NCBI GenBank assembly: GCA_037176845.1 | Contig: JAYKXP010000021.1 | Span: forward strand, 248,001 to 312,000 | DNA length: 64,000 nucleotides | DNA from: Paramarasmius palmivorus | Taxonomy: Eukaryota; Basidiomycota; Agaricomycetes; Agaricales; Marasmiaceae | Reading direction: 5' to 3' | Part shown: in pieces, positions 30,524-63,791 of the stretch | Layout of the letters: each line of letters begins with the position of its first letter | Position numbering within the stretch: position 1 is the stretch's first letter | Position numbers and translations under genes: made by a program | The notes under the pieces: generated by a model | Seen by the model: only the letters and a program-made list of their open reading frames with translations | Told to the model about the DNA's origin: nothing | The model's database searches: none

Positions 30524-30752
30524 GTATGTTCTAAATAATGTCACTTAATGACGCATGACTTTTTACCTGCACAAAACTCACATGCCTGTCCGCGTGTGTT
30601 CGGTGAGGCTTCGAGGTCGAAGTATCAGAGAGAAAGAGGACGTGTGAAAAAACCATTTGTAAGGGACTTTTCCCACACTCAAGTACTCTTATCTGAGGTA
30701 AGTTACGAAATTTCATGTCTCTGGTACAAAACTATATACGGTGACATCCGGT

Positions 30753-32425: not shown

Positions 32426-32640
32426 TATGACGATGAACTGGAGAATCCATCAGTAACTCGACATATCGTGAATGCAAGAACTTACGGTCCGATAAGAGTG
32501 TCGTGGAAGTAGCAAGGAAAGATCGACGTGTGAGGACTGACATGGACATGCAATCGTCACGAGGCTACTCGGAGTCGTAGAAGAGCAAAAAATATGTAAT
32601 GCATAACGATAAGTAAGACTGTCTATTAGTATACCCAAAA

Positions 32641-33165: not shown

Positions 33166-33204
33166 CGGCCAAAGGTACAAGGGTAACAGCCTCCTCCAGC
33201 TAAT

Positions 33205-33780
33205 AGCTTGCTAGCATGATACTTCGTAGCTGGCGAAACGTTGCCCTTCTTTGGCTGCCTGATCACCCCAGGTGTTCTCGTCGCGAACAAGTGGTTTAGG
33301 ATGGGTGTTCGTGAGAGAGGAGACGGATAAAGTAACAGGGATGCATGGAATATCAATTCTACTCATGTATCAGTACTGCTCGCAAGTAAAAGTACGCGAC
33401 AACATACCCGAACTTTGAAGCACTTTCCAAAATCCCAGTAGCGTTCGTGAAGAACTAATCAACCGAGGACTATGTATGATGATCATGAGCCCAACAGTGG
33501 CACAGAAGGCAAGGTAAAGACTTTACGCGTATGGGTCATCAGCATTGTAATGAAAGGAGCGACATGTACGACATAGAGCGTTGATGTTCTTCATTGGTTC
33601 ATCGAACACACTGGTCCAAAGCGATCGCTCAGCATGTGATTGCACGACAAGAGCTAGTACAGCGACACACCTTTGCAGTATTCTGAACAGACGAACGCCT
33701 AAAACTTTGACACTCCTTGGCTCCAGCAACGGCATTTGCATATTCAAGAAGACCCGGAAACCTGGCGATCCATGAGCCAT
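33205..33780 (-). pseudogene. Decayed NAD(P)-dependent reductase, remnant 2
   Basis: Minus-strand fragments match the intact reductase at 50-51 kb: VFDEPMKNINALCRTC then FHYNADDPYA (matching AFDEAVKGVDAVQHI and FHMNADDPNE), NATGILESASKFG near 33420, and KPLVRDENTWGDQA near 33280. Frames are broken and the N and C termini are gone. It directly abuts the F-box remnant at about 33.2 kb, so two unrelated dead genes are joined. Confidence 0.72.
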
Positions 33781-34476
33781 AACGAGGAAGGCCTAGGTGG
33801 TATTGTTAGCTGCGTTAGCTAGGTAAATGGCACGTATGTCACTCACGTCCATACCCTCAAAGACAGGATAACATATTCCGACAAGGCTGTCGTCATGATC
33901 TTGAGCTGGAAATTATCGAGCCCCGTGGTATCGTTCGAGGGTCGATATCTTTTGGACAACTGGGTTCTTTTTGCCATTTTTCGACACTCCGTATCATTAA
34001 GAGCTTTTGTGGTGTGGGGAAGGATGGATGCCTTGATACGCGACAGAACAGAGACGTCCAGGAAAACGGGCAATGACAATTTGAACCGACGTTCAACGTT
34101 CAACCGAGGATCACATGCTCACCAAGGAGCCTATGACGTCACCAAGACAATTTGTCTTTTGACGCGTTACAAACGCGTTCCACGCCTTAGAAAACGAATT
34201 ACAGGCTATATGCGAAAAATTGAGCCAAGAACCTTTCTGTAATCATGAATGGGCGAAAACATCCCAGGAGAGAGAAAGAAATGCCCGCAAATACAATGAC
34301 CCTGACGCGCGACTCGAACGTAACGGGCTGCACTCAGGGGCTAGCATGAACCGGTAGAACGCTTCTTTAATTTTGCATATACATCGCCAAATTTTAAGAG
34401 AAAGCATGTATGCAGCTCGAGCAGCTATCGACCCTTCGTTCCATACCTTCTCAACTCCCAATCCATCCGTACACAT
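33781..34476. other. Intergenic, no gene seen
   Basis: About 0.7 kb between the reductase remnant and F-box-like gene 3. Open frames are short and on both strands. Confidence 0.4.
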
Positions 34477-36161
34477 TCATCCATCATGTTCATCAATAGC
34501 CATCCCCTGAGCTATCAAAGCATCCAATCTCTCGCGTGAACGTTTATCGGTTATCCTACGATCCAAGGATACGAAGCGTAGGCGGCTTGCACCACTCGCA
34601 GTATCCTCAGCTAGCTTCCATCGATATTCCAATGCATCGACCAAAACTGTGTCTGCGTAGGACAGCTTATGTTTGGGGTGTCGAACGATGGAGAGCTTCT
34701 CAAGGCGTGGAACCTCCGGCGATGAAAAGGTCCTTATGTGGTTATCCGAAATATTCCCTGCCATTGCTGTTGCAAATCCTATCTCCAAAGTCTTCAGATA
34801 CGGTACGGTGGACAGTACTTCGCTCAGGGTTTCGGGATATAAGGATCGGGCCAGAGGAATTATCAGAACAGTCAATTTGCATCCTGACCGTCTTAACAGC
34901 GAGAGAAGTTCGTCCCAACCAGCAAAAGGAGATGTGATTTGGAGATTGGATAATCCGGGTGTGGAGATGCCTTCCAAGAAATGTGGAATTACAGCGTCGC
35001 CTCGATCTCGACCGGTGCCCGGATCCGTGGAAAGGCTCCCTGAAACCATCAAGGTAATAAGATGTGTCGTTATTCTTCCCGACGTCGATGTTGCCGCCAT
35101 CATGTCCGATACCGAAAAACCAGGGTCAAAATCGAGCTCGCAAACTTTTACGTTCGAAAGCCCTCTGATGATAGCGCATAGCTTATCCGAGTCTGTCAGG
35201 GGGTTTCTCCTGAACATCACTAACCGGCGTCTGAAGCGAAAGTGCTGGATCTGGCCCCATGGCAATGTCATAGAGCCGAGAGCGTGCAAGGAAATGGACG
35301 TCAACCGGGGGCGAACTCGAAACAAGTTGCAAGGTCACTCGCTTGGTTGGGAGTCTCGTCCAAGTCCATGATCAAACACTCTAACCGGGGAAGGAGTCCT
35401 CGCGTAGAAAATACACGTTGCACGCCTTGGGATTTACCCTTGAGCTGCAAGTGTTTCCACCTCTCCGAGAAAGCACACAGCAGGACCAACATTGGATGGA
35501 TGTTGAGCAATACTTCCGATGTGATATGTAGGGGTCCACTGGCAGTGTTGTGTTGTAGTTTCACCTTCTCGCTAGAGATTGACACGATCAAGGGGAGATT
35601 TTGTGAACGGTGAAGTTGTAATCCCAGTCGGTGGACATCAGCGGTCATCGATTCCTGTGAGATGGCTTCGACTTGTCGAATGTCGAGGGACACACCGGTC
35701 CAAAGCTGTGGCGTCGATAGTGCGAAACTTCTCCAGCCTCGACAAATCTGACCCAGGACCCAAGGCATCCGAGAAGGCACCAAGGAATTCTGGAACTCGG
35801 GCGGTAAGTCTACATGTCCGTCAGTACGATCTACACAGAGATCGAATATGTGCCGTAGGACATCGACTGGAGCAGTGCGAATGGGGTGTAAGATGACTTT
35901 GTATTTCTCCACGATTCCTACAAGTCGACTCCTCTCCGCTTCAAGCAACGCAATCGTTGCGCTCAATTGTTTGAGGCGGGATTTTGCTACGTTGAACTCC
36001 TCCTTGAAAGGGCTGGAATCGTCTGGGTAACCATTGACGCGGGTGAGATGGGCATACAGGTCATCAGGAGGACCATGAATGGTGTTCTTCGACATTTCCA
36101 CATCGGCTCTGCATGTTCTACAACAGCTGGAATCAGACGAATTGGTATTCTGGGAGGCCAT
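34477..36161 (-). pseudogene. F-box-like protein 3, frameshifted
   Basis: The upstream frame (36161 to about 35312) carries CCRTCRADVEMSKNTI, the coiled coil and HPIRTAPVDVLRHIFDLC, and reads to CFEFAP before a stop. The downstream frame (from about 35310 to 34477) resumes with RLTSISLHALG and continues to SLDRRITDKRSRERLDAL. The join falls in a run of five G on the plus strand (35307-35311); one extra base would restore APRLTS, as in F-box-like genes 1 and 2. It is closest to gene 1, sharing the LHRSQNLPLIVSI and QGVQRVFSTRG stretches. A homopolymer sequencing error is a real alternative to pseudogenisation. Confidence 0.8.
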
Positions 36162-36420
36162 GAAGGTTCTGGGTAGCTTTTTAGAGGACTACAATGCTTG
36201 ACTTGGACTGTACTCACGACTATATTGATGTTGCTTCTTCTGAGCGCGTTAGACGGTTGAAGTACCGGGTAGAGGAGAGAGCGTGTGAAAAAGCCAGTTG
36301 CATCCGAGTCGTGACTTTTCCCCGCTCGAGCGCTTAAATTCAATCTTGTTGGCGGTAAGCGGTCGAATTTTTTTCATTCCTTACTCATGATATAAAACGA
36401 CTACTATATACATGCACTAT

Positions 36421-38133
36421 TCAAGTATTTAAGTGGCACCACGCTCTTCGATGACCATCCCGCTGAGCGATCAAAGCGTCCAATCTCTCCCGTGTGGATG
36501 TACTCCTGATTCTGCGGTCCAAGGACACGAAGCGCAACCGACTTATGCCTGCGTCTTCCAGTATGTTCCATCGATACTCCAATACACCAGCAATCATAAA
36601 ATCGCCATAGGATGGACTCCGGCCAGTAGTCGGAACGATCGAAAGCTTTTCGAGGCATGGAACAACTGGCGACCAGAACACCGCAACGTGATCGTTATCC
36701 ATACCCTCCACAAAGCCCAACTCAAGGGCTGTCAGATCCCGTAAGGTAGACAGCACCTCACTGAGGGTTCGTGGAGATAGTAACTCCGCTGCTGGAATGA
36801 CCAAACTTGTCAGTTTACACTCCGAGCGTGTAACCAACAAGCGTAGGGCATTCCAGTCAGAAAATGGGGATGTAATCGTCATGTATGACAACATCGGTGC
36901 TAACAACACTCGCATTATGGATGCGGTGGCTTCGCGGGTTCGTTCGCTATTTGCAAGCGCCAATGTCGTGAGGCGACTGAAATGAAGTTCGCCTATCTCT
37001 GAGCCTATCGCCAATATGAAGTGGTCGAAGAATAAACTGCATTCTTCGACGTTTGCCAAAGCTTCGAGAGTTTTCTGTAGGATCCCGGTGGATCGCCCGT
37101 TATCGGAGAGTTCCCAGGAAGTGGTCCGCCGGTGTACTATGGAACCTCGGTAGAGAGAGAAGGTGCTTATTTGTCCCCATGGTAGTTTCAACAGAACTGG
37201 AATGAGTCTACTGAAAGAGACGGACTTCAGACGAGGAGCAAACTGAAAGCAAGTTTCCAATGGAGAGGTACGATTGACCCTCTCATACTCGGAAAGCTTG
37301 TGATCCAGCTCCAACGCAATCGTCAGACTCTCTAATTCGGGAAGTAGTCCGCCAACGTATGTCATGCGCGCTAGCATGGTTTCGATGTGACCTTCGAGAC
37401 GCAGATGGCGCCACCTTCGCGAGCATGCACACAGCAGTACCAGCAGTGGATTATTTTCGTCCAAAATATACTCTCCGTCACGGTAATTATAAGTGTTGTG
37501 GGAACCGTCCACCTTTGGACAATAAATCGTCACAGTCAACGGATGATTTTGTGAACGATCAAGTTGTAAACCGAGACGTAGAACGTTGGAAGAGATGGAC
37601 CTCCTCACGCTTTCAGGGTGCCGAACGCGGATCGATACAGTGGTCCAAAGCTCTGGTGTTGATAAAACGAGGCTTCTCCAAGATAGACACACCTGGCCCA
37701 AAACCCAGGGCATCTCCTTGGGTATCAGCGAATCCTTCGTGACGAGCGGAGTTGCCGTATGCGAGTCTTCCTCGGACTGAATTTGGAGGTGACCCGCGCA
37801 ATAACCAAAAATGTGGCGTAGAATATCCGCTGGTGCGGTTCGGATCGGATGCAGAATGACCTTGTACTTCTCCACAATCTCTTCGAGACGTCTTTTCTCT
37901 GCCTGTAGCAAATCAATCGTCGCGCTCATACGATCGAGACGAATCTTCGCTGATTCAAATTCCTTCTTGAAAACACCGGCCCCATCGGGATAGCCGCTAC
38001 TCCGAGCGAGAGTTTTGTATACTGCATCCGAAGGGCCATGGATGGTATCTCTCGATATCTCTACATCAGCTTTGCACGTCGCGCAACAGCTGGAATCGAG
38101 CGAATTTGTCGAATCAATGTTCAGGGTGGACAT
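36421..38133 (-). CDS. F-box-like/LRR-type protein 4, altered C terminus
   Basis: A single frame of about 570 aa from the ATG at 38133; an in-frame ATG at 38190 would add 19 residues. It has the family layout: CCATCKADVEISRDTI, coiled coil, HPIRTAPADILRHIFGYC, VCLSWRSLVLSTPELW, then leucine-rich repeats. It resembles gene 2 most (shared LRLGLQLDRSQN, DENNPLLVLLCA). The last ten residues depart from the family after LDALIAQ. In the +1 frame the DNA there would continue GMVIEERGAT and stop at 36429-36431, as in the paralogues. A one-base change near 36460-36468 therefore seems to have replaced the C-terminal tail. The protein is probably still made and stable, but its end is not ancestral. Confidence 0.82.
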   Translation of the reverse strand: MSTLNIDSTNSLDSSCCATCKADVEISRDTIHGPSDAVYKTLARSSGYPDGAGVFKKEFESAKIRLDRMSATIDLLQAEKRRLEEIVEKYKVILHPIRTAPADILRHIFGYCAGHLQIQSEEDSHTATPLVTKDSLIPKEMPWVLGQVCLSWRSLVLSTPELWTTVSIRVRHPESVRRSISSNVLRLGLQLDRSQNHPLTVTIYCPKVDGSHNTYNYRDGEYILDENNPLLVLLCACSRRWRHLRLEGHIETMLARMTYVGGLLPELESLTIALELDHKLSEYERVNRTSPLETCFQFAPRLKSVSFSRLIPVLLKLPWGQISTFSLYRGSIVHRRTTSWELSDNGRSTGILQKTLEALANVEECSLFFDHFILAIGSEIGELHFSRLTTLALANSERTREATASIMRVLLAPMLSYMTITSPFSDWNALRLLVTRSECKLTSLVIPAAELLSPRTLSEVLSTLRDLTALELGFVEGMDNDHVAVFWSPVVPCLEKLSIVPTTGRSPSYGDFMIAGVLEYRWNILEDAGISRLRFVSLDRRIRSTSTRERLDALIAQRDGHRRAWCHLNT

Positions 38134-38421
38134 GTCAACACTAAACAACCCATTAGTTGATCGAACTGCTCGTGAACGTGAAGGACTCACAGTTGTATGA
38201 GATGTTGCATTCTGAGGCGGCTGGTTATCTTGATGGAAGTAGCAAGGAAAGAACGAGGTGTGAGAAAATTTGACATGCCATCGCCATGAGGAGGTTCTTC
38301 GGACCGTGAAAGGACGAAAAGAGTAAAAACGATAATTTAGATGTAACGATACATAACGATGAATTCCATTAGCCTTTCTATAACCATGATTCCCAAAATA
38401 AGAACAAAGAAAATGCTCTCC

Positions 38422-40050
38422 TCAATTCTCCTCTACAACAACCAATCCCTGAGAGCGCAAAGCCTCCAGTCGACTACACGACGTAGGATCAGTGACCTTC
38501 CTATCCAACCTGACGAACCGTAACTGATGTACACCCTTGGACGTCTCTGGAGTGTTCCATCGGTACTCCAAAGCATCGAGCAAGACAGTGTCACTGTACG
38601 CTGAACGAGATGTAGAGTACTGGACAATGGATAGGTTCTCGAGATGCGGCACTACCGGCGACGAGAACACCGAGATGTGATAATCCACCGCTCCTCCAAC
38701 GAACCCCAATTCGAGGGACGTCAGATCCGGTACTGCTGCCAGAACCTGCTTCAATGTATAATCATTTCCTGGAAGCAGAGATTCGGTATTGCCCAGTGAC
38801 TGGGCGGCATGAATCGCCAGTGTGTCCAGCTTGCACGACGAGCGTGAAACAAAGGAAACTAGCTGACCCCAGCCATTGTATGGTGTAGCGATATCGAGAT
38901 GGGCCAACTTGGGCGTGATGAGCCAGTTGAAGAAGTTGGCGGCTGCAAGACAGCCTTGACGACCATCAGTGGATAGTGTGAGGCTGGTAAGGCGATCAAA
39001 TTGTAAGGGAAGGAGGTTGCCGCTACCCCATGGAACGGAGGCTGAGGCAGGTATACGAAGTGTAAAGTCGAAGTTTAGGTTACATACTTCGACGTTGGGA
39101 ATCTTGCTAAGGACGGCCCAGAATTTGTCGGTAGTAGGGGGTAAAGTGAGTAAGCTTTGCCCTGGGGCATTCGCTGCAGGGTCTCGGTCAAAGGTGAAGT
39201 CCGTGATCTGGTGCCAGGGAAGTTTCATCGAGGATGAAGTGAACCCATGAAGGGATATGGTCCGCAGCTGGGGACAGTAGTCGAAGAACACCTCTTCCTC
39301 ATCGATAGAGGCTATGATATCCGAGTCGACGGTGAGGTGTTCTAAGGCAGGAAGAAGGCCTCGGACGAGAGACAAGGATTTGAGAACACTTTCGTGACCC
39401 CCAAGACGAAGGTTTCTCCATTGTTCTGACCGAGTACAGATGAGAATCATCAACGGATGGTTGAAGTTGTCCCTCTGGGCATGTATCGTGACGTCAAGAG
39501 GGATGGTCTGCGAACGATGAAGCTGCAAACGCAGCCGCCAAGCCTCCGATGCCAGCCGTTGTGGGTGCATGGTTCCCAAAGGCCGAATATCGAGTACGAC
39601 TGATGTCCAAAGACAGGGAGTAGATAATGCTATTGACCTCCACGAGCGACAAACCTGGCTCACAACCCAGGGCATACCGGAAGGTAGTAACGAAGTTGTA
39701 AGTGTCTTGCTGCCGTCATCGGGTTCTGCGCAGATGGCAAATATCCTCCGCATGATTTCTGGAGGAATGACACGAATTGGATGTAGGATAACCTTGTACT
39801 TGTCCAGAATCTGGTTGAGACGTGCGCGCTCCGTGTCGAGCAGTGCAATGGTAGCATCCAAGCGCTCCAGATGTGCCTGAGCCGCCTTCATTTCCTTCTT
39901 CAAAGCATCTCCATCCGCGGGATAGTCATTGCCACGAGCAGAGCTCTGATAAATCTCCTCCTCGGGACCATGGACTTGCTCCTTTGACATCAGAACGTCA
40001 TCTCTGCAAGAAGAGCATGGTGAATCGGATTCGGAAAGCCGAGAGAACAT
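38422..40050 (-). CDS. F-box-like/LRR-type protein 5
   Basis: Uninterrupted frame of 542 aa from the ATG at 40050, chosen because the other members start about 11-20 residues before the cysteine motif; the frame continues upstream to an ATG at 40200. The most divergent member: PCSSCRDDVLMSKEQV, coiled coil with DATIALLDTERARLNQILD, then HPIRVIPPEIMRRIFAIC and VCRSWRSIALSTPCLW, and a leucine-rich body ending LDRKVTDPTSCSRLEALRSQ. The predicted role is substrate recognition for an SCF-type ubiquitin ligase, by analogy. A decayed copy of its 3' part lies at 32.6-33.2 kb. Confidence 0.85.
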   Translation of the reverse strand: MFSRLSESDSPCSSCRDDVLMSKEQVHGPEEEIYQSSARGNDYPADGDALKKEMKAAQAHLERLDATIALLDTERARLNQILDKYKVILHPIRVIPPEIMRRIFAICAEPDDGSKTLTTSLLPSGMPWVVSQVCRSWRSIALSTPCLWTSVVLDIRPLGTMHPQRLASEAWRLRLQLHRSQTIPLDVTIHAQRDNFNHPLMILICTRSEQWRNLRLGGHESVLKSLSLVRGLLPALEHLTVDSDIIASIDEEEVFFDYCPQLRTISLHGFTSSSMKLPWHQITDFTFDRDPAANAPGQSLLTLPPTTDKFWAVLSKIPNVEVCNLNFDFTLRIPASASVPWGSGNLLPLQFDRLTSLTLSTDGRQGCLAAANFFNWLITPKLAHLDIATPYNGWGQLVSFVSRSSCKLDTLAIHAAQSLGNTESLLPGNDYTLKQVLAAVPDLTSLELGFVGGAVDYHISVFSSPVVPHLENLSIVQYSTSRSAYSDTVLLDALEYRWNTPETSKGVHQLRFVRLDRKVTDPTSCSRLEALRSQGLVVVEEN

Positions 40051-40200
40051 CCTAGGCGAAATTCTGGTGAGTTTGAAGGGCTTTCCCGTCAAATACGATG
40101 AGAAGCTCACGCTTGTAAGATCTAGCGACCAAAAGGATCCTGAATTATCCCAACTGACCATGGGTTGAGGGCTTAAGTAGCACGGGGGAAAGTGGGACAT

Positions 40201-50157: not shown

Positions 50158-51452
50158 CTACCATCCTCGTTCAGCGAAATCGACCAGTAGATCCTTGGTC
50201 GTCTCTTCTTTGGTTCTATACTTCCACTCTCCTTCACCTTTTTCTCCTCTACCTGCTGCATCATTTGAAATACTAAGAAGTTGCTTCCCTTTCTCGTTCT
50301 TGTACACGACATGTGGGCTGACATCTTTTTGGGAACCAGGTGCACCTTTCGCGAATGGGTGTTTGGTGTACGGAGATGGTGTCAATGAGTTGGCGATATC
50401 GACTGTGTCGAAGGTGCGTCAGGAAGAGTGTAAGTGAACGAAGTAGACAGAACACGTACGCCAATCCTGCCAGCAGGTATCACCTGCAGAGACAATAATC
50501 CTGTGACCGCCAGCTGCTTCTCTCTCCAACGCACGAACGTGTGCCTCTCCAAGGTCTCTGACATCGATCCAGCTAGTGGCCTTCGCTGATAAAGCAGCGT
50601 GTGGTTTCCCTGCTGCATCTGCAACCCAAGTGAGTCATCTGTTGAAAAGAGGGGAGCATCGGGTAGACGACATACCAGGCTCGTAGGTCATGACGGTCTT
50701 GTACCAGTCTCCAGCCGAGGTACCCAAGTAGTCGGGTGTAGGAACATGGTTTGTTGCAGGGCCAAAGACAAAGGGCGGGTTGATGGTAACCAGATCCCAT
50801 TTCAATTCAGGGTTTTCCTTCATAAACTTCCACGCAGCTGTACAAGAACCAGTCAGTCCACATACTCCATACCAACACGCCCATACTACTCACCTTTCTC
50901 GGCCAACGTCTTACTAGCTCTGTATTTTGTGATGTTCGCCGCGTTCCTCCCCTTCTCCTCGACGTCTTGAATGCTTTGGTCATTCCAATCCTCTTCGCTA
51001 AACACCTTCGGCTCGGGCGAGTTGTGCATAACACTCGCACAAGAAGACGTAACCACGACTCTCTTCACCTTGTCCCCACCAAACTTTTTCACGCTCTCCA
51101 AAATGCCCACGGTACCCTTCACAGCGGGTTCAATCAACTCGTTTGGATCATCTGCGTTCATATGGAACGGAGAAGCGATGTGCTGAACCGCATCGACGCC
51201 TTTGACAGCCTCGTCGAATGCACCTGGTTTAGAGATGTCTGGAACGATGACAAAGTCGAACTGGCCGGGCTTGTATCCAGGAACTCGCTTGGTAAACTCT
51301 TCGACGAGCTCCTTCCCTTTAGATTCTGAGCGAACGGTACCGCGAACATGATGTCCTCTTTCGAGGAGAACGCGAGCTACCCAGGCAGCGATGTACCCAG
51401 AAGCGCCGGTAACGAGGACGAGAGATTGCGAAGTGGGAGAGACGACGGGCAT
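50158..51452 (-). CDS. NAD(P)-dependent reductase (DFR/GRE2-like)
   Basis: Four exons (50894-51452, 50676-50837, 50460-50618, 50158-50402) give about 374 aa. The N-terminal Rossmann fold is LVLVTGASGYIAAWVA (glycine motif about residues 16-22). VVVTSSCASV follows, and the catalytic Y-x3-K is in TKYRASKTLAE (about Y177 and K181), split just before exon 2. INPPFVFGPATN and SWIDVRDLGEAHVRAL are typical of the dihydroflavonol reductase/methylglyoxal reductase branch of extended SDR enzymes. These reduce aldehydes or ketones with NAD(P)H in the cytosol; the substrate is unknown. Introns are 56-57 nt. Two decayed relatives lie at 27.3-27.9 and 33.2-33.8 kb. Confidence 0.92.
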
Positions 51453-51718
51453 AGTTGATGCGACGTTGATGAGAGATAAGAAAAGCTGACGCGACAGAAT
51501 GAGAGTTTTAGTGCAACTACCGGAGTTCCGCCGGACCGCCGACGCGTTTGTGACCAATGACCATTTTGCTGACGAATCGCTCCCGAAAGCCGATTCCTCA
51601 TCGGACAACTTTTCCGGCTCTTGGGTTGATACAGGTATAGTGCTGCCTACAGGATATGGGTGTGAAAGTATCCAACGTATAGGGACGAAAACGTATCCAG
51701 AAGATGAAGTACAATTAG

Positions 51719-54666: not shown

Positions 54667-54993
54667 TCAGCAACTGAGACATCGACCGCCCACGCAAATG
54701 ACGCATCTGGGCTCGAGGGTTTGGTCCTCGTTCTTCAGATGGCTATTAGTGATCGTGTCATCTTGGATAAAAGACAAGTTGGGCCTCACCTCGGCCGTAG
54801 ACGTCTGCACCGCGTCCGGGACTTTGGATTGGGGGACCTGGGAGGTCGCGACGCTGTAGGGAATGTCATTCAGTATTATTTTCCTGTCAAGAGAGCCTAT
54901 AAAGACATACTCGTTCGACGACGATGCCACCGGAAGTGCTAATGCGAAGGTGGCAAGAGACAAAGTAGAGAGGAATAAGGAGGTGAGCTTCAT
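54667..54993 (-). CDS. Small secreted Cys-rich peptide A1
   Basis: Three exons (54911-54993, 54790-54853, 54667-54732) give 70 aa. The signal peptide is MKLTSLFLSTLSLATFALA; the short polar linker is followed by a tail RCVICVGGRCLSC that ends the protein, so cysteines are spaced C-x2-C-x4-C-x2-C. Both 57-nt introns are in frame, so the unspliced sequence would also be open (108 codons), but exon lengths 83/64/66 match A4 (83/64/90) and A3 (83/61/66), which supports splicing. Predicted to be exported; four cysteines could form two disulfides or bind metal. No known family recognised. Confidence 0.78.
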   Translation of the reverse strand: MKLTSLFLSTLSLATFALALPVASSSNEYVFIGSLDRKIILNDIPYSVATSQVPQSKVPDAVQTSTAEVRPNLSFIQDDTITNSHLKNEDQTLEPRCVICVGGRCLSC

Positions 54994-55913
54994 AGTCGAT
55001 TTGGTTGTAGAGTTTAGTCTGAGCGAGCTTGGATAGATTGGAAAGAATGGTTTGCTTCAAAGCGTCGAGCTCTACTTAAACGTTGCAAAAATACGACGGT
55101 CGTATCTCGATCGGTGGTATGGACCCGTGCAATCCAGCCGCGACAGGCACACCACCACTGCAAAGCTGGCTTCGGTACCGATGTATAGTTGTCGTGATGA
55201 GTAGGCCAACAATGACCTCTGCATAGGCACAGCCAAATTGAGAAAGATATGTGACCACTTTCTTGGTTGGAGGCTAGCAGCGATTCCGATCGGACTCAGT
55301 TGTCGCACGAAGCAGCCTTTGTCGTTGTGTAACCGTTTCTTAATTATTGGAGACCATTTTTGTTTCTCATTTGTTTCCAGAGAAACTCAGACGCCCATCT
55401 AAGCACTTAAGTGATGCACGATCCCCTTTCCGAACGAGGAAAGCTGGGGTTAACAGGGCTTTGCAGCAGGAGCCACTGTCCCGTAGTCAGTAGTCAAATC
55501 GAGTCATTCGTCAGTATTGATACAGGCCCTCAGATTCTTGATTGCAGCTGCGACCCGAAGCACAGCTAGCGAAAAGAAGACTTCTTTGATCTCGAAACGC
55601 AAGCTTGAGATTGTTTCTTTTGATGGAGGTCTGGTGGCTGAACGGGTTGGTGCATTGCCTTCAGCGCCTCGGATTCGGGACGGGCAATTTCGTGGTCAAG
55701 ATAAACACATCTGATGAGAAATGTCCCGTATTGATCCAGACCTCCGGAGCACAAGCAGGCCCCTCACCGAGCCCTCAGCCTATGGGCTTTCCAGCACAAT
55801 TTCACTGTCGGGATATAGTTTACTAAATTATTTACAGGTAAGATAGTTAATCGCGTCTTGAAAGCCACTAATTCTAGGAATATGAGCCCGCCAGCTGGAG
55901 ATGTTTTCCATCT
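54994..55913. other. Intergenic within the peptide array
   Basis: This holds the A1 promoter (a weak TTAAA near 55076) and about 0.8 kb of unassigned sequence. Confidence 0.4.
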
Positions 55914-56233
55914 TCAACACATAAAACATCCTTGGTTAGGGTAACAGATAATGCATTGAGTAATAGGGCGCCGGCCCTTCACGAGAGGGCGCATCAGCTG
56001 CTATGGTCGAGGACTCAGGGAGGTACGTACCTGAATCTGGGGTTCCGAAACGGTATTGACGCCAAAAGTCTCTGAGACGGAGGTAGGGACAGATGAAGCC
56101 CTGCAAATTTGACCATGAGCTTGCAGTCTGCGTGAGACAACCATGAGACTTACCGATCCGTTTGAGAGGTTACTGGATGGCCCAAGGCGTTAATGGCAAA
56201 GAGGAGGACCGCTAAAAATAGTGTAGTATTCAT
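55914..56233 (-). CDS. Small secreted Cys-rich peptide A2
   Basis: Three exons (56154-56233, 56031-56100, 55914-55976) give 70 aa. The signal peptide is MNTTLFLAVLLFAINALG; a serine/threonine-rich middle follows (SSVPTSVSETFGVN); the tail is CIICYPNQGCFMC, spacing C-x2-C-x5-C-x2-C. Introns are 53 and 54 nt. The second acceptor (GTGAAG) was chosen over a CATAG that would leave only 30 nt; A1 also uses a GAAG acceptor there. Phases 2 then 0 match the other type A genes. Predicted extracellular peptide of unknown role. Confidence 0.78.
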
Positions 56234-57103
56234 GATGGTGTGGAAGGTAGTCTTGTGGGCGTAAAAGAATTGATTATGAGTCTATGGTTCGTCCGACGCC
56301 CTTTTTAAACCCGTAATGTTTGCAGTAAAAGCCAAAGCGTACATTTGGAAGAATTGCAGTGAATACAGCATCGCTCCAGAGGCTGCATTGCTTGAGGATG
56401 TCTTTAATGGAAATTCAGATACCATTGGATCCTGACTGAGCATAGCCAGGCGCCGGAGAGAAAGTTGTAGATCTCATACAAAATGGATATGGGAGAGAGA
56501 GGCGAGACTGACGAGCCACCTGTGAGTCAATGTATAGCATCTTTGAAGTGGTAATAATGGTGTATCCTCGTATCTTCTCGCGATCTTGGGATAAATGCAC
56601 CGCGATAAACCTCGCCTTTCAGAGGTGCTAGCGCATTTTGAACTGGATGCAAGTGTTTGACGACGCAAGAGTCACAACCAAAACCAGTGAGGGGCACTCT
56701 AGCCAGGAAGGTGAGAAACTGTACACAAAGGGATTTTTATTAGAGTCTGAGAATGCCTGGAAACGCGCTATCGATGGTTTGCGTTGAAGAGCGATTCGAG
56801 GAACTACGGCGCTGCAAAACTTTATTGAAGGACATCGCATGGTTGTAGATTCGCCATCGAGATCATGGTTCGTATGGTTCGTCGTTAAGGTAGTAATAAT
56901 CTGAAAATTCCATTCCCGACGCCGGATAATCGGCATCCTCCGAAAATTATAACAAACATTAAGATGGGATACTATTGTATGGTAGATAAATAGTGACACA
57001 GACTCGGAGGCTAGGGTCGGGTCAATTACTATGTCTTTATTGTAGACCTTCGAGTCGGTGCCGCCACTTGTGCAATCGACTCGAGTGCACACCTAGAACG
57101 ACT
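56234..57103. other. Intergenic within the peptide array
   Basis: No further peptide gene recognised; longer minus-strand frames here lack a signal peptide followed by a cysteine tail. Confidence 0.4.
56304..56309 (-). promoter_or_regulatory. TTTAAA box upstream of peptide A2
   Basis: TTTAAA lies 71 nt before the A2 ATG. Comparable boxes precede the other peptide genes. Confidence 0.5.
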
Positions 57104-57391
57104 TCAACAAGGGAAACATTGTCCAGCAGGGTTGCAGCAGATCGCTCGCCCTTTAATTTGAACTCTCCGTGTCTGGAATTCGTCTCGAAACTGTGAATGA
57201 ACAACACCGGACTTGACAGTATCTGTCTCAACCAGATGACTGCTAGTACAATCTTCAGCGATGGAACAAGCGTGGTAGATTGACATAACTTGCCTGCTGT
57301 TCAAGTCTAACGCTTTCAAGCTTGGTGAACGGGTAGGACTACCGATTGTAGTAGCAACGAGAAGTAGTGCCAGGAATAGGGAACGGAACAT
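57104..57391 (-). CDS. Small secreted Cys-rich peptide B1
   Basis: Two exons (57294-57391, 57104-57239) give 77 aa. The signal peptide is MFRSLFLALLLVATTIGSPT. The tail ICCNPAGQCFPC ends the protein. The 54-nt intron starts with GC (AG then GCAAGT) at phase 2, exactly as in B2, B3 and B4, while a GT choice gives no family-consistent product. The linker SHLVETDTVKSGVVH matches B3 (SHLAGPDPVEAG). Predicted extracellular peptide; family unknown to me. Confidence 0.8.
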   Translation of the reverse strand: MFRSLFLALLLVATTIGSPTRSPSLKALDLNSRQVMSIYHACSIAEDCTSSHLVETDTVKSGVVHSQFRDEFQTRRVQIKGRAICCNPAGQCFPC

Positions 57392-57427
57392 TGTAATGAA
57401 ATGACCTTATCCATGTCGGGTCTGGGA

Positions 57428-57438
57428 TTTAAAGCCTC
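57428..57438 (-). promoter_or_regulatory. TTTAAA box upstream of peptide B1
   Basis: GAGGCTTTAAA on the coding strand, 37 nt before the ATG. B3 has the identical word. Confidence 0.6.
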
Positions 57439-57932
57439 GAAGGATGCGCTACAAACGCAGTTGAGCAGAAAGCTATCTCTTCCGAGTCATAGTTGTTTGC
57501 ATAGCCGATCGCAACGTAGATGCATAACATCCTGATCCCTTTGGTGCATAACAAAGCTCAGACTGAATATATATATTCACTTCAAAAGGAAGTCGAAATA
57601 TCAATATCCTATCCTATTTTACTTGCACGCAACCGCAAACATATAGGATTTACAGGTCCCGGATAAGACCGTACTGTTCGCAAAGAATCAGGGAAGAAAT
57701 TTCCCCTGCAGGATGCTAGTTTCGGCTCTAACAATGAAAGAAAGACGACAGGAATTCCAATGATTGAAACCACTAGGAAAGGACCATTACCACCGTCTCA
57801 TGTTGATTTGAAGCGATGTGAGAAATATAGGATAGCCACCCGAATATTATTCTTGATAAGAATCATTGAAAAGCATTGCGCCTCGATAGGACCGCCTCGA
57901 GGGTGTTGGTAGTCAAGTTCGGATGGTGGCCA

Positions 57933-58000
57933 TGGTGGTTCATCAACAAGGCCTAGATGTGGGAACGTTTTCCATAGCCTTCGGCTTTTTCCGAAATCGG
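57933..58000. repeat. Duplicated 3' block, copy 1
   Basis: A segment with GGTGGTTCATCAAC, GTGGGAACGTTTTCCATAG and TTCGGCTTTTTCCGAAAT lies about 200 nt downstream of B2. Related segments follow B3 and B4, marking a tandem unit. Confidence 0.7.
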
Positions 58001-58203
58001 GTGTGCCGAAAACGGCTTGGGGTGATAATCATATAGTTTTAGTTTTGGAAATTGGATGCACTCTTGTCCGGGTACAACCACCTCAACCACTATTTACGCT
58101 AAGCACAGCACAGACTCCTGGCCGCATATCTGTACTCCACAGAAGCAAGCATTTATTGCACCAAAATTACATCCGATCGGCCTCAAGCTTCCACATTTAT
58201 TCC

Positions 58204-58490
58204 TCACTCTCGGCAAGGTGAACAACGACCATCAGGGCTGCAGCAGAGTGCTGCCTCGCTTCGCCGCCCAATTCGTATTTTCCTTGCCCATGATTTGCCT
58301 TGAGACGCTGGAGGAGAAACACCAGCTTGAGCAAGTTCGGCCGTATCACTGTAAGTGCAAAGCTTAGCGTTGAGTCATTGTAGACAAGTTTTAACAGAAC
58401 TTGCCTACTGTTTGATGCTTTCGACGAACTTACAGGAATTCCAAACGCAGTAGCGACAAGAAGTAGCGTCGAGAGTATGGGTCGAAGCAT
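58204..58490 (-). CDS. Small secreted Cys-rich peptide B2
   Basis: Two exons (58405-58490, 58204-58348) give 76 aa. The signal peptide is MLRPILSTLLLVATAFGIP. The 56-nt intron uses a GCAAGT donor. The mature region AQAGVSPPASQGKSWARK is close to B4, and the tail is ALCCSPDGRCSPCRE. Two residues (R-E) follow the last cysteine, as R-K does in B4, whereas B1 and B3 end on the cysteine. Confidence 0.82.
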
Positions 58491-58529
58491 CGTACCGAAA
58501 TGAGTCGATTTATGGCAGCGAGATGCCGC

Positions 58530-58538
58530 TTAAAACCC
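58530..58538 (-). promoter_or_regulatory. TTTTAA box upstream of peptide B2
   Basis: GGGTTTTAA on the coding strand, 40 nt before the ATG. Confidence 0.5.
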
Positions 58539-59398
58539 TGGACAATGGGATACCAATTGACCGTGTGATTATTCTCACAGCCGAATAGAGTACGCGATAT
58601 ATTTGCGACGATCTTCTTATACAATAGCTCGCTCAGACTCCGAGTCGTCCTCGGAATAGGAAGCCAGTAACGCACAGTGTACCTTGTCGTCAGTAGCATA
58701 CGAGCATTATAATTTATTCTCAAGTTGAAAGTATGCAATGCGCATTGGCATAAGATCTATCTGCAAAGATAGGATAAGTGCAGATAAGTGCTTTTTATAA
58801 GTAGGCACAAACAGGGGAGAGCTCGAATTTACTCACAGTCAAGACTCGCTTATTGTAAGGCGCCCGACGCGCCGAGTCCAATACGAGCAGGGCTTGGTAC
58901 CCTTCCGAGGGTACCACTCCCTGAGTAGGTAGAAATAGAGGTGATAGACAAGGCCAACGGCCGAGTGAGCACGTCAAATACGTGGATTGTGGTGGTAAGA
59001 AAGACTCAAAGATATTCTACGTGGCATAATCGGCTACATGTAAGGAATGGCACCCCAGGTACCTAGGGCGCCTAATTAGACCCGTGACACTTATTGTCAC
59101 GGTTCTTGATTGATTTGGCAACCGGGTCATTGACCACATCTGAGATTCTGAACGCGATCCCGGCATTATAGGTGCATTGTGATGTGCAAAGCATTACTTT
59201 GCACAGACACCTCGAATCCATTGAAAGGTGTACTGAGATATCCTGTTGATAAACCATCTGAGGGTTATATCATTGTATGGTATGGCTGATATGGTGTATC
59301 CGTAGGATTTCAATACTTACATACATCGAGCGAATACTTTGGTACTTACCCTGTGAGAGACCAAAGGTAGAACTGCCGTATCAAAGGAAATGACCGTG

Positions 59399-59480
59399 GC
59401 GGTTCATTGTCAACAACCAGAGGTGGGAACACTTTTCCATAGGAATTCCCGTAGTGGCGCGTCGGCTTTTCCCGAAATTG
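59399..59480. repeat. Duplicated 3' block, copy 2
   Basis: Contains GGTTCATTGTCAACAACC, GTGGGAACACTTTTCCATAG and CGGCTTTTCCCGAAAT, about 240 nt downstream of B3 and similar to 57933-58000. Confidence 0.65.
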
Positions 59481-59717
59481 CTTGAAGGACATATACAGTA
59501 GCTGCAAAATTGGAATAGCAATACACTGGCTAGATTACAGATAACAATTAAAGTGGGATAGCATTATACTAGAATGAAATTAATGATAGTAGGGTGATAC
59601 TAGTAATATAAGGCGATAAACGTTCAATAAGGTAGTCCCAATTAGTTGGTCTTAGTGTAGAGACCTCGGTACTTTCACGTTTCCCATCTACACGAAAGTA
59701 TTGCACACAGACCGACT

Positions 59718-60002
59718 TCAACAACTAACGCAACCAGTTCCGTCAGGGTTGCAGCAGAGGGCTCGTCGCTCGGGTTGAACATTCCGTGTCCAAGATTTGT
59801 CTCGCGGCACAATCGGAAAAGTGCCGGCCTCGACAGGGTCAGGCCCAGCAAGGTGGCTGCTTGGAATGCAATCTTTAGCCAAGCATTAAACAAGGCAGAT
59901 AGATTATACTTGCCTGTTCAATTCTGATGTTTTCGTAGTGCGTATAGGTCCGCCGATAGCAGTAGCGACAAGAAGTAATGTCAAGAATAGGGAACGGAAC
60001 AT
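59718..60002 (-). CDS. Small secreted Cys-rich peptide B3
   Basis: Two exons (59914-60002, 59718-59856) give 75 aa. The signal peptide is MFRSLFLTLLLVATAIGGP, nearly that of B1. The 57-nt intron again has a GCAAGT donor. The tail RALCCNPDGTGCVSC ends the protein, with one extra residue between the third- and second-last cysteines compared with B1 and B2. Predicted extracellular. Confidence 0.82.
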
Positions 60003-60047
60003 GGTAGCTATGGGATGATGATTCTGTTCGAACTGAGTGCAGGGGAC

Positions 60048-60058
60048 TTTAAAGCCTC
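60048..60058 (-). promoter_or_regulatory. TTTAAA box upstream of peptide B3
   Basis: GAGGCTTTAAA on the coding strand, 46 nt before the ATG, identical to the B1 box. Confidence 0.6.
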
Positions 60059-60580
60059 AGATGAGTGAGATATAGCCGCCGTTGAGTAGAAGATAATCTC
60101 CTTCGAGTCAAGTGATCCCGTGTACAGCCCATCACTGCATACATGCATGGCATTCTGAATTTTGATCCTTTTGAGACGCGAACTTCAACGGAGATGTTTA
60201 CTCAGTGAAAGGAAGGCTGAATACATGTAACAATCAGTGTACTGGTTCAGTGCCTGGAAAGGACGACCGCTTGTAACCATTGGAAAATTCGCGACCGCGG
60301 TGATCTGCGGATTTCCCGATTTGCCAGACCCACTGTTGGTGAGTAGTCGGGTACTCATTCATTGCAGATAGCTGTTAATGATTTGTATCCAGGAATACTA
60401 CCAGTGCAAGATGCGACGAGAATTTCGAGTCATCGGAGTGCTTGGACCATTCATTCAATCTGACTTCGATGAGATTTTGCGTTGATTTGCATAAATGCGA
60501 GAAATCCAGGATATCCATTTGAATAAAGGCTTCAAGATGGCTCACATAGTGCATGTCAGTAGGGCCACGTCGAGGGTTCA

Positions 60581-60665
60581 TGGTGGTTCATCACGAAGCG
60601 CAAAATGTGGGAGCAGTTTTCCATCGTTGCCCGAGTCTTTAATTTCTTTCGGCTTTCTCCGAGAT
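60581..60665. repeat. Duplicated 3' block, copy 3
   Basis: GGTGGTTCATCACGAAGC, GTGGGAGCAGTTTTCCAT and TTTCGGCTTTCTCCGAGA, about 280 nt downstream of B4, resembles the blocks after B2 and B3. Confidence 0.65.
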
Positions 60666-60946
60666 GAGCTAGTTATCCCCGAACTTATCACTGTTGCTAT
60701 CTCCATGTAGAGTGAAGGCACGAGGCTTAGCAGGGCTTAGCGAGGCTCTGAGATACGAGGTCGTTTGTAGTCGTTTTCCATATTACACAACTTCGGATTT
60801 TTCGCCTTGATAAGATGTGCTCCCAATCACATATGTAGGTAATCTAGATAACAAGTATATCAATCCAGTCTAAAGTGAATATTCGGTTTCTTTCGTTGGC
60901 TTTAGCCGCAACGCTACACCCAATCGACCTCACTAGATCGTATGCT

Positions 60947-61245
60947 TCACTTTCGACATGGCGAACAGCCTGAACCGTCGGGGTTGCAGCAAACGGCTGC
61001 TTTACTTCGCTGCCTCAATCGACCTCTACGCTCCCAAGAGTTATCCTCGGACTCGGGAGGAGAAATACCAGCCGCGTTTTCGAGCTGAGTGAGACTCCCA
61101 TTGCTAGCAAGACGAATATGAGGAATTGTGGTCAAGATAAAGGAACAATGGGCACTTGCCTACTTGGCGCGTGCTGCAAGCGTGCCATTGTAATTCCGAA
61201 CGTAGTAGTCAATAGAAGGAGCATCGAAAGCAAGGAGCGAAGCAT
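60947..61245 (-). CDS. Small secreted Cys-rich peptide B4
   Basis: Two exons (61160-61245, 60947-61103) give 80 aa. The signal peptide is MLRSLLSMLLLLTTTFGI. The 56-nt intron has the family's GCAAGT donor. The mature peptide LTQLENAAGISPPESEDNSW then a basic stretch (ERRGRLRQRSK) leads to AVCCNPDGSGCSPCRK. It is closest to B2. The basic pair before the cysteine domain might be a protease site; that is a guess. Confidence 0.82.
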
Positions 61246-61767
61246 TGTAGTGGATTGGATACTTCCGCAGTAGGGACAGACTGGTTAAAACCTCAGCTAG
61301 TGAGATGTAAACGCACACGAGACTAGAAAGTGCAGCACAGAGCCGATAGTCATCGCACAGCCGAGTAAGACATCCGTGTACGACGTTCCTGTGTGAAATA
61401 GTATCGCTTTGGCTCTCGAAATAGAGCGTGAGAGACACAACATACAGTGACAGGATCCAGGTGAGCGGTGAAAGATGCTACAGTCATTCAATCGAGCTGG
61501 AATACTAGATTAGTGACTTCATGTATGGGACGCATAACACGGCACTCTGGACTCAACGAATTTACTCACGGTACGGTCTCAAGAGCGATATGGTATAAGA
61601 TCAACGTAGACACCTGTGCATTTGAAAGACAGGGACAAGCTTTGCACATGCCGTGACATGCGACGGTATACAGTGGTTTCTGGGGCGAGTAAAACCATAT
61701 CTTGATATTGCATCTGTCGAGTACACGATAACAACAAGAAACCGCTTAGCAGCATGTTTCATACTCG
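61246..61767. other. Intergenic within the peptide array
   Basis: No gene recognised between B4 and A4. Confidence 0.4.
61285..61294 (-). promoter_or_regulatory. TTTTAA box upstream of peptide B4
   Basis: GAGGTTTTAA on the coding strand, 40 nt before the ATG. Confidence 0.55.
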
Positions 61768-62115
61768 TCAACCCATAGAGATCGCATTTGTGGGAGAACA
61801 ATTCAGGCATCCCAGTTCTGGAAGGCAGATGACGCATGTTCCGCTCGGCGTGTGACTCTGTGCAAAATACATCACTCTCCCATCAGTTGAAAACGACGAG
61901 AGTCACTTACTTTGGCGGAGCTAGATTGCGTCGATGAAGTCGAAGATTCGATTTGAGTTGATGTGATAGCTACACTATGGGGCGGTACCTGAGTACGGAC
62001 ATAAGGCTCATTGTCCTATTAGGATTGCTCACCTGCTGAACATCTCCGTGGTCGGCACACCCAAAGCCAAAGGTGCGAGAAGAAAAGCAGACATTAGACT
62101 AAAGACAATGAGCAT
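61768..62115 (-). CDS. Small secreted Cys-rich peptide A4
   Basis: Three exons (62033-62115, 61911-61974, 61768-61857) give 78 aa. The signal peptide is MLIVFSLMSAFLLAPLALG. The serine/threonine-rich middle is TSTQIESSTSSTQSSSAK. The cysteine motif CVICLPELGCLNC (C-x2-C-x5-C-x2-C) is followed, unlike other type A members, by 11 extra residues (SPTNAISMG at the end). Introns are 58 and 53 nt. Exons 1 and 2 have the same lengths as in A1. Confidence 0.78.
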
Positions 62116-63475
62116 AGTGAAAGATAACATTGGGAATATTGAGACTCTGTTTAAAAGGCGTACGAGTGCTGTGTTACTGTGGCTTGAATTCCAAATTTGA
62201 ATATACGGCCGAACGTCAAAGACTACTAGGCTCCTATCTGACGAAAGTCAAGGTATATTCCCCGCATCTACTGGAATGAAGGTTGACAGCAAGCGGGGAG
62301 TATGAGGAGCTTGGCGACTTGATCGATCACGGAATCTATACAAGCCGTCAGTGAAGCGCGGGACCGATATGTTAACGATAGGCACCGCCATTTAGGTTCA
62401 GGCACAGTCTTGAAGTAGATATCGCACTATAAGCCCTGCGACAAGGTTCACGACACGGAAAGAATGCCCTACTGCCCTAAGATGAGAGCGCACATGGTAG
62501 TCGTGATCAAAAGAGAAGTGTGGGAAAATGTTGCCAGAAGGCCCGTCACGTTCAACGCGTCACTCGTGACATGTGACTTTTCAAGAGGTTTCTAACGCTG
62601 CGCTTCGTCTTCTGAGTCTTTACTCGATAGACTTCTGAAATTTGTGTTCTGGTCAATCTACGGAACCGAGTCAAAATGAATTTTCAGAGAAGGCCCATCG
62701 ACAGGTGATCAGGGGGAAGGACGATGCCAGGCATTAAGTACCAGCGATGTGACAATTTAAACAAAGGAACTTCTTAGGGACTACTGAAGAGATGGGATGG
62801 TTGAATTGTGCGTGTGCTCACCATTTTCTCCTCTCCTTCTCTGACACGGCTATTGTTTCAGCTCCAGTCTACTCCTGTTGTAATTCACGAACCACGAACT
62901 TTCTACGACCTTCATCACCGAGCCTCCGAGCCCAAAATCCGTCAGAACACGAACAAGATCATGAAGACTGATACGCTATACCTACTCAGCCATAAGAGGA
63001 ATACCACCGATTACTGGTACACCCCGCGGCTCTACAGGATACGACAATACAATCATGCCATGGGTCACTGTCTATTTGGTCACTGCCAACCCGCCATCAA
63101 TTTCGTGGTTCTTATCAGTCGACGTCTTGGAATGGTATACCGCTTCCACTGCCTTTGCAATATTCAATCCTCTTTGCGGGAACCTCAGGTGTTCCCGCCG
63201 ACCGGTCAAATCGCCAGGCACCAGCTGCGTTTTATCATCAAGGTACGATTCGCTCGCGGGAAATATATGCTACATCATCAAGATGAAAAGGCACAAAATG
63301 GGTATGCGATTAAACTGGTACTAACTACAGGTTGAGTACAAGTATGATGTATAATGTCAAATACGAGAGGTGTATGATAATAGAGGGCTATGGCTACATG
63401 GTCAAGGTCGATTAGATGGATATAAGATTCCGGTATTCCTGATAAATAGACGATAAATAAGACTGTGATCCATGC
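62116..63475. other. Intergenic, no firm gene
   Basis: About 1.36 kb. A 175-codon plus-strand frame at 62808-63335 overlaps another frame and shows no motif; I do not call it. Confidence 0.4.
62150..62155 (-). promoter_or_regulatory. TTTAAA box upstream of peptide A4
   Basis: CTTTTAAAC context, 35 nt before the A4 ATG. Confidence 0.5.
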
Positions 63476-63791
63476 TCAGCAAGACGAGCAGTTGCCGTTG
63501 GCATCGCATATGGTGCACTTTTCAACGAGTGTATGGTGAGTCTAGATGTAATCTCTGAGCGCCTTTCATCGTACAGGGCAAGAAAGGCGCCTTACCTCCG
63601 TGGTCTCTGAGGCGGTGTCGTTAATTGGTTGAATTTGCCGAACACGGGCAACATCACTGAGACGTAAGTGAGTACGTTTCTGAAAATGGGTTATTCGCAT
63701 CAACTTACCTATCTGACGTCGACTCTATGGGTAACGCCGCTGAAGCAGCAGTGAGAATGAACAAGGAAAGAACAACGGTGGCAAATTTCAT
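63476..63791 (-). CDS. Small secreted Cys-rich peptide A3
   Basis: Three exons (63709-63791, 63596-63656, 63476-63541) give 69 aa. The signal peptide is MKFATVVLSLFILTAASAA. The linker VARVRQIQPINDTASETTE precedes TLVEKCTICDANGNCSSC, which ends the protein; compare TLEPRCVICVGGRCLSC in A1. Introns are 52 and 54 nt with canonical ends. Exon lengths 83/61/66 match A1 (83/64/66). Predicted extracellular peptide of unknown role. Confidence 0.82.

Follow-up and report, generated by a model that had tools for sequence, protein, structure and literature searches.

A dispersed gene family for predicted secreted mini-peptides with a four-cysteine module in Paramarasmius palmivorus

In the genome of Paramarasmius palmivorus (Agaricales, Marasmiaceae), one reported cause of cacao thread blight (PMC11053350; PMC8581569), a 64-kb stretch of DNA, here called the window (C21:248001-312000, in a genome of 68.3 Mb and 393 contigs), holds an array of eight minus-strand genes whose products would each begin with a signal peptide and finish at, or close to, a compact four-cysteine tail. 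The array is part of a duplicating family, seen so far only in the P. palmivorus genome, of which 20 loci and one apparently decayed copy were found on three contigs (C21, C6 and C3). We propose, with about an even chance of being right, that the encoded precursors are secreted and give rise to hairpin peptides stapled by disulfides, whose targets are extracellular and most likely belong to other organisms. The gene models, their shared structure, the constraint upon them and the layout of the cysteine module are read from the DNA sequence, and the hairpin is predicted from it. Small secreted cysteine-rich peptides are as such an already known kind.

An array of eight genes and its extension

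An earlier note on this DNA had claimed eight such genes within 9 kb, in two subfamilies and with coding parts split into short exons. All eight (8/8) are present at the positions it gave, and shuffled sequence does not reproduce them. The adopted models, numbered along the window, are as follows.

g1, 54667..54993, minus strand: CxxC subfamily; exons 54911-54993 (signal), 54790-54853 (spacer) and 54667-54732 (tail CVICVGGRCLSC); two GT-AG introns in phases 2 and 0, both 57 nt.
g2, 55914..56233, minus strand: CxxC subfamily; exons 56154-56233, 56031-56100 and 55914-55976 (tail CIICYPNQGCFMC); RR just upstream of the tail; TATA-like element at -76.
g3, 57104..57391, minus strand: CC subfamily; exons 57294-57391 and 57104-57239 (tail CCNPAGQCFPC); GC-AG intron in phase 2.
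g4, 58204..58490, minus strand: CC subfamily; exons 58405-58490 and 58204-58348 (tail CCSPDGRCSPC-RE).
g5, 59718..60002, minus strand: CC subfamily; exons 59914-60002 and 59718-59856 (RR-AL-CCNPDGTGCVSC).
g6, 60947..61245, minus strand: CC subfamily; exons 61160-61245 and 60947-61103 (tail CCNPDGSGCSPC-RK).
g7, 61768..62115, minus strand: CxxC subfamily; exons 62033-62115, 61911-61974 and 61768-61857 (tail CVICLPELGCLNC + SPTNAISMG); introns in phases 2 and 0; ATG at 62130 as alternative start.
g8, 63476..63791, minus strand: CxxC subfamily; exons 63709-63791, 63596-63656 and 63476-63541 (tail CTICDANGNCSSC); TATA-like element at -84.

Splice combinations were enumerated for the eight loci and one model was then fixed per locus. 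The division into short exons was confirmed: the CxxC genes (g1, g2, g7 and g8) have two GT-AG introns each and the CC genes (g3-g6) one GC-AG intron with the donor GCAAGT (minus-strand donors at 57293, 58404, 59913 and 61159), all introns being 52-58 nt long. For g4 the GC-AG model was preferred for its likeness to g3, g5 and g6, and a GT-AG alternative had the higher score.

A scan for a cysteine tail near a stop codon gave eight matches in the window, seven of them within the array and one unrelated, at 27198; g7 escaped it because nine residues follow its last cysteine and the pattern allowed four. Forty first-order Markov shuffles under the same scan gave a mean of 0.3 matches and a maximum of two. 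When the tail was coupled to an upstream hydrophobic signal exon beginning with ATG, a filter defined only after the family had been seen, 17 matches were obtained in 224 kb (the window, its flanks, and pieces of C6 and C3), as against 0-3 in 12 first-order Markov shuffles and one in the reversed sequence. In 15 of the 18 modelled genes a TATA-like hexamer stands no more than 90 nt from the ATG, and at a limit of 160 nt the number is 16 (the misses are g1 and c3b), the background being 6% per 90 nt for hexamers that were picked after inspection. Three tail-like matches that have no signal exon, at 27198 in the window, at L008:3718-3765 and on the plus strand of C3 at 269204, were rejected as family members. 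No competing gene stands out among the open frames of at least 90 codons between 53 and 64 kb of the window.

The array extends past the window edge, with four more genes on C21 (g9, g10, g11 and g12 at 317, 315, 361 and 388 kb). Contig C6 carries two copies, c6a at 981 kb and c6b at 985 kb, which have g3 as their closest relative and align to it over about 0.5 kb at 73-76%, and C3 carries six loci, c3a-c3f, between 269 and 278 kb, among which the c3e protein matches g6 (E 0.002) and g5 (E 0.01) in the genome search. The spread is one of tandem and dispersed duplication. The figure of 20 loci is a lower bound, coverage beyond C21 having been 40 kb chosen by place together with 3-kb pieces around matches, from searches by single protein queries that scored the best candidates only; weak matches on C9, C28 and C110 showed no family tail within the 3-kb pieces examined. 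Models were obtained for 18 of the 20 loci; c3a gave none under the intron rules used, and c3c has no ATG at the start position of its neighbours. The apparently decayed copy, of a two-module gene at L053:3354-3452 (C3:274354-274452), was judged from reading its sequence and hints at birth and death within the family.

Shared introns and the terminal cysteine

The gene models share a structure that extends to the phase of their introns. Intron 1 falls in phase 2 directly after the signal exon in 17/17 adopted models (13 in the fixed set and four on C3; c6a, outside this count, was spliced by homology with c6b), and intron 2 is in phase 0 in all nine two-intron models (eight in the fixed set, and c3b). 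Phase was ignored in model scoring, and the adopted model was the top or tied-top one in 14/17; for g9, as for g4, a lower-scoring model that fits the family was adopted, and g10 was placed by hand. Introns measure 50-58 nt in the 13 genes of the fixed set (g1-g12 and c6b). A GC-AG intron with the GCAAGT donor occurs in 6/6 CC gene models of C21 and C6, and the CC-containing genes c3e and c3f of C3 use GT.

The earlier note had placed the tail at the very end of each peptide, which holds for g1, g2, g3, g5 and g8 and fails for g4 and g6, where two residues follow the last cysteine, and for g7, where nine do. These three are the exceptions among the 18 modelled precursors, the other 15 ending in cysteine when a third intron is counted. 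This intron is possible in g11 and g12, diverged genes 27 kb apart (L010:9587-9642 for g11; in L023 for g12), where it would interrupt the last cysteine codon in phase 1; the cysteine is then completed and followed by an immediate stop, and without the intron both frames run on. The chance expectation of such an acceptor is about 0.01 per 45-nt span, for an intron sought only after a public protein had been seen. That protein, the hypothetical protein VNI00_006825, starts at a later Met and ends exactly as the g11 model does, third intron included. The third intron is either an old shared intron or a sign of repeated recovery of the C-terminal cysteine.

The introns of g1 are free of stop codons, so that an unspliced stop-to-stop frame of 129 codons is open there (54667-55056), and g3 is likewise open unspliced; intron retention in either gene would yield longer variants.

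One module in two cysteine registers

When 23 hand-typed modules of g1-g12, c6b and c3a-c3f were compared, a core near C-x-P-[DN]-G-x-C-x-x-C was seen in both subfamilies. The core loop has a glycine in 22/23 modules and [DN]G in 16, and its second position is a proline in 14. The extra cysteine stands three residues before the core in the 16 modules of CxxC form, as in C-V-I-C, and directly before it in the seven of CC form, as in A-I-C-C. Immediately ahead of the second cysteine of CxxC, or of CC, comes a hydrophobic residue (I, V, L, once F). The loop between Cys2 and Cys3 has 4-6 residues, except in g10, where it has nine.

The precursors of c3e and c3f carry a CC module and then a CxxC module in tandem, joined by a linker of the type REVKQDVPTFEPG that resembles, by eye, the end of the g1 spacer (DQTLEPR). 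Because both forms occur here in one precursor, the two subfamilies, which were borne out as groups, are on their sequences variants of one putative hairpin module, a step beyond the division first proposed.

Constraint on the coding sequence

If the frames of these genes were maintained by selection, indels within them should preserve frame and replacements should be limited, and a test of this kind, suggested beforehand for closely related strains, was run here on paralogues of the CC clade only, with an outcome that speaks for the genes. All nine coding indels are multiples of three, compared with 31/108 non-coding ones (c6a-c6b and g3-c6b together; Fisher p 3e-5); the contrast is weak for c6a-c6b alone, where 9/16 non-coding indels are also multiples of three, and in g3-c6b every coding indel is in frame. 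The ratio of nonsynonymous to synonymous substitution rates (dN/dS; Nei-Gojobori, six of 15 possible pairs) is between 0.26 and 0.67 in five of six pairs: c6a-c6b 0.26, g4-g6 0.35, g3-g5 0.40, g5-g4 0.43 and g3-c6b 0.67. Fisher tests on rounded site counts gave 0.048 for c6a-c6b, 0.001 for g3-g5 and 0.0003 for g4-g6. For the tail only, the ratio is 0.08 in g4-g6, 0.17 in g5-g4, 0.37 in g3-g5 and 0.68-0.81 in the pairs of g3 with the C6 copies, with Fisher values of 0.001 (g4-g6) and 0.024 (g5-g4), and the c6a-c6b tails differ by zero replacements. With the cysteines excluded, the signal has an identity of 0.57 within the clade, against 0.37 for the spacer and 0.39 for the tail; in the tails of this clade the cysteines are fixed and the loops change.

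These figures bear on the view that the loci are decaying duplicates without function. One apparently decayed copy does lie near C3:274.4 kb, c3c is without an ATG at its neighbours' start position and one pair has a dN/dS near 1, but the in-frame indels, ratios that are mostly well below 1, the shared introns and a terminal cysteine codon kept across an intron make this view barely credible.

Predicted fold and release of the tail

AlphaFold2 was run on exon 2 of g5 with three paralogues and on VNI00_006825 (g11) alone. In both models the spacer is disordered, with a predicted local distance difference test (pLDDT) score of about 50, and the tail is ordered, with pLDDT block means of 84-85 for g5 and, for g11, 88 over the last ten residues and 70 before them. 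Two strands flank a P-D-G turn (residues 33-35 and 42-44 in g5; 59-61 and 67-69 in g11), and the CC and CxxC tails are thus predicted to form the same beta-hairpin. Read by eye from the models, Cys2 would face Cys3 and Cys1 would face Cys4 in the CxxC register, as in a two-rung ladder; in the CC register, read in the same way, Cys2 would again face Cys3, with Cys1 and Cys4 offset.

A short four-cysteine hairpin brings to mind the disulfide-laddered beta-hairpin antimicrobial peptides of animals, which are cationic and amphipathic, and it may be asked if the fungal tails are membrane-active in the same manner. The predicted fold is in keeping with this, but the tails are near neutral (about -2 to +1, read from their sequences) and without cationic amphipathic character, so that a membrane-lytic defence function, one reading of the defence role listed in the earlier note, seems very improbable.

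Lysine and arginine account for 19% of the 12 residues that precede the module (40/208) and for 6% of the remaining spacer (29/483), a difference whose p of 6e-7 is inflated by the relatedness of the genes. Release of the hairpin by a protease acting at basic residues is likely in some members. Cleavage by Kex2 would not be general, since a basic pair near the module is found in only 8/18 genes, and c3e and c3f are without a pair and nearly without a spacer. Signal peptides were judged by hydrophobicity only.

Searches for relatives and for known systems

Standard gene finders were expected to miss most of these genes, and this is what the protein database reflects, where just one of 15 query genes (g11, as VNI00_006825) was recovered. 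A search with the CC alignment gave 51 candidates, none at E 10 or better; the CxxC alignment gave 1102 candidates, with only P. palmivorus's own VNI00_006825 as a match; and the C3 alignment gave 24 candidates and no match. The outcome of such searches depends on whether genes are annotated and five-residue words are shared, and the searches failed to recover 14 of the 15 query genes themselves. For a relative sharing the tail alone, E 10 would be almost out of reach among 5.8 billion sequences, so that absence elsewhere is weak evidence.

The statement that no named family has this tail also stands, nothing being above cut-off in Pfam among the 17 proteins scanned and no convincing relative appearing in the PDB or the protein database. 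PDB profile searches gave nothing for the CC and C3 alignments and, for the CxxC alignment, 16 weak matches (E of at least 0.17), mostly to the signal end; those to viral capsid chains were taken as chance. Sub-threshold Pfam matches include MF_alpha_N on residues 1-37 of g1 (E 0.008), M35 peptidase and Meg on g1, and FeoC on g6, among others. Literature searched on small secreted, Kex2 and CXXC families includes no paper that, by its title or the start of its abstract, describes such a fungal family; none was found on conotoxin-like peptides in basidiomycetes, and the tail strings led only to papers on unrelated subjects.

Could the four cysteines instead remain free thiols that coordinate a single metal ion (Zn, Cu, Cd or Fe) in the cell wall or extracellularly? 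The two close CxxC pairs of the CxxC form would bring four thiols together, and the g8 tail has a sub-threshold match to PF10588, the most telling of the Pfam matches below cut-off. Against metal handling, signal peptides point to passage through an oxidising route, the CxxC spacing is not kept in the CC form, and no metal-binding family is above cut-off in the 17 proteins scanned with Pfam; we regard it as quite improbable.

Two known fungal peptide systems were considered by their genomic neighbourhood. A UstYa-family oxidase beside the precursor gene is a mark of clusters for dikaritins, which are ribosomally synthesised and post-translationally modified peptides (RiPPs). At least 36 UstYa matches occur genome-wide, none on C3 or C6, and the nearest on C21, at 163 kb, is about 139 kb from g1; a dikaritin-type RiPP cluster is disfavoured by this lack of a UstYa match near the clusters. 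Basidiomycete mating pheromone genes lie near an STE3 receptor, and their precursors have no signal peptide and a CaaX end. A CxxC end looks outwardly like a CaaX box whose X is Cys, yet the models carry a hydrophobic N-terminal exon, which served as a filter in the scans of other pieces and was no filter for the eight window genes. All 36 STE3 matches are on C22, C100 or C64, with none on C21, C3 or C6, and a mating pheromone is disfavoured, the clusters having no STE3 on their contigs.

Comparison with conotoxins, KEPs and candidate effectors

In form, the closest analogue is framework X of the conotoxin T-superfamily, with the pattern CC----C--C and disulfides I-IV and II-III (PMC4278219), a pairing that would be compatible with the predicted hairpin. 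The likeness, which is not one of membership, lies in the order CC, loop, C, two residues, C, and in a precursor that runs from a signal through a pro-region to a short cysteine peptide at the C-terminus (PMC4278219; PMC3862624). Conotoxin genes have three exons that correspond roughly to signal, pro-region and mature peptide (PMC3862624), and the three exons of the two-intron fungal genes roughly match these parts. The exact framework X spacing, CC-x4-C-x2-C, is found in one of the seven CC modules (the first of c3f), the other six having a loop of 5-6 residues. Among the exons of conotoxin genes the mature one changes fastest (PMC3862624), and the introns exceed 3 kb, whereas the fungal tail changes no faster than the spacer and introns in the 13 genes measured are 50-58 nt; the fungal peptides differ also in having the CxxC register, with the first cysteine three residues away, and two-module precursors. 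No conotoxin family was among the Pfam matches of the 17 proteins or in the PDB profile searches.

The secreted fungal precursors known as KEX2-processed repeat proteins (KEPs) resemble the present family in that basic residues mark, or here may mark, the release of short peptides (PMC6339444). A KEP must by definition contain three or more similar motifs with KR, RR or KK between them (PMC6339444), whereas the genes described here have one or two modules per locus, and in 6/18 one of these three pairs lies within 12 residues of the module; the published KEP pipeline requires at least three repeats (PMC6339444) and would skip them. According to the KEP survey, some secreted fungal peptides may have hormone-like roles (PMC6339444), and the hairpins could similarly be peptide hormones or serve recognition among the hyphae of one fungus, perceived by a membrane receptor. 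Small precursors, a signal exon and upstream basic residues would suit such self-signalling; many divergent copies with changing loops fit a single conserved receptor poorly, and the STE3 matches are confined to the three contigs named above, so that we consider it unlikely.

The genus Moniliophthora belongs to the Marasmiaceae, the same family as P. palmivorus. Small cysteine-rich candidate effectors of Moniliophthora are defined as secreted proteins of at most 150 residues and more than 3% cysteine (PMC6029071), and the 18 models, with 52-96 aa and at least four cysteines each, have these properties, the signal being judged by hydrophobicity. That class is operational and silent on function, and the term CxxC is absent from the main text of its description (PMC6029071). 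No Moniliophthora protein was returned by the protein-database searches with the 15 query genes.

A proposal for the hairpin peptides

The roles suggested at the outset were effectors, defence peptides, cell-surface signals and metal binding; of these, a pheromone-type signal is disfavoured by the STE3 evidence and membrane-lytic defence by the near-neutral tails. Extracellular action on other organisms is favoured here. Each precursor would consist of a signal peptide, usually a fast-changing disordered spacer that becomes more basic near its end, and a cysteine module of 10-17 residues, single or on C3 sometimes double, which in most cases forms the extreme C-terminus. Within the secretory pathway this module would fold into a beta-hairpin around a turn that is typically P-[DN]-G, with Cys2 and Cys3 stapling the strands beside the turn and Cys1 and Cys4 closing the open end; in the CC form Cys1 would be shifted two residues toward the turn. 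In some members the hairpin is probably released by a protease that acts at or near basic residues, many others lacking a dibasic site. Since the loops change while the cysteines stay fixed, the hairpin may be a rigid frame that presents variable residues to extracellular targets, and its most likely use would be against or on organisms that share the substrate, such as the host plant, competing microbes or small animals. Action on other organisms is suggested by the spread through duplication, by the changing loops on fixed cysteines and, weakly, by the failure to find a relative. Secretion, disulfide formation, cleavage and function are our inferences.

Several observations weigh against this proposal. 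The predicted template modelling (pTM) scores of the AlphaFold2 models are low, at 0.26 (g5) and 0.22 (g11), because only the tail is ordered, and the models show strands and not disulfide geometry. A basic pair (KR, RR, KK or RK) lies within 12 residues of the module in 8/18 genes, or 6/18 without RK, and c3e and c3f have no pair and almost no spacer. Constraint is uneven, with a dN/dS of 0.99 in g3-c6a, a Fisher value of 0.15 in g3-c6b that falls short of significance, and a tail that without its cysteines is no more conserved than the spacer (0.39 vs 0.37). The g8 tail (residues 56-66) has its sub-threshold match to the PF10588 iron-sulfur binding region, at E 0.009 and 16 bits with a cut-off of 27.

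Put more broadly, it is conceivable, at somewhat less than even chances, that the Marasmiaceae evolved, independently of animals, a conopeptide-like system, in which a double-disulfide beta-hairpin of 10-17 residues, switching between CxxC and CC registers and used singly or in pairs behind a signal peptide and a dispensable spacer, has spread to three or more contigs as a library of variable peptides directed at other organisms. To our knowledge, gene-encoded stapled hairpins of so few residues are rare. If the peptides are made, mushrooms possess a library of ultra-short disulfide peptides that is for the most part unannotated, and such products are undercounted in secretome surveys based on gene predictions. 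The intron phases, the split terminal cysteine codon and the two cysteine registers provide rules for finding such genes in other agaric genomes.

Other features of the window

Elsewhere in the window, an O-methyltransferase dimerisation domain (2838-3467) and an NAD-dependent epimerase/short-chain dehydrogenase-reductase exon (50886-51608) were recognised, with no sign that either belongs with the peptides. Several similar long minus-strand frames occupy 28838-40200; of three tested, two match the F-box-like PF12937, one of them above cut-off. A fragment of a KDZ (Kyakuja-Dileera-Zisupton) transposase lies at 23809-24333.

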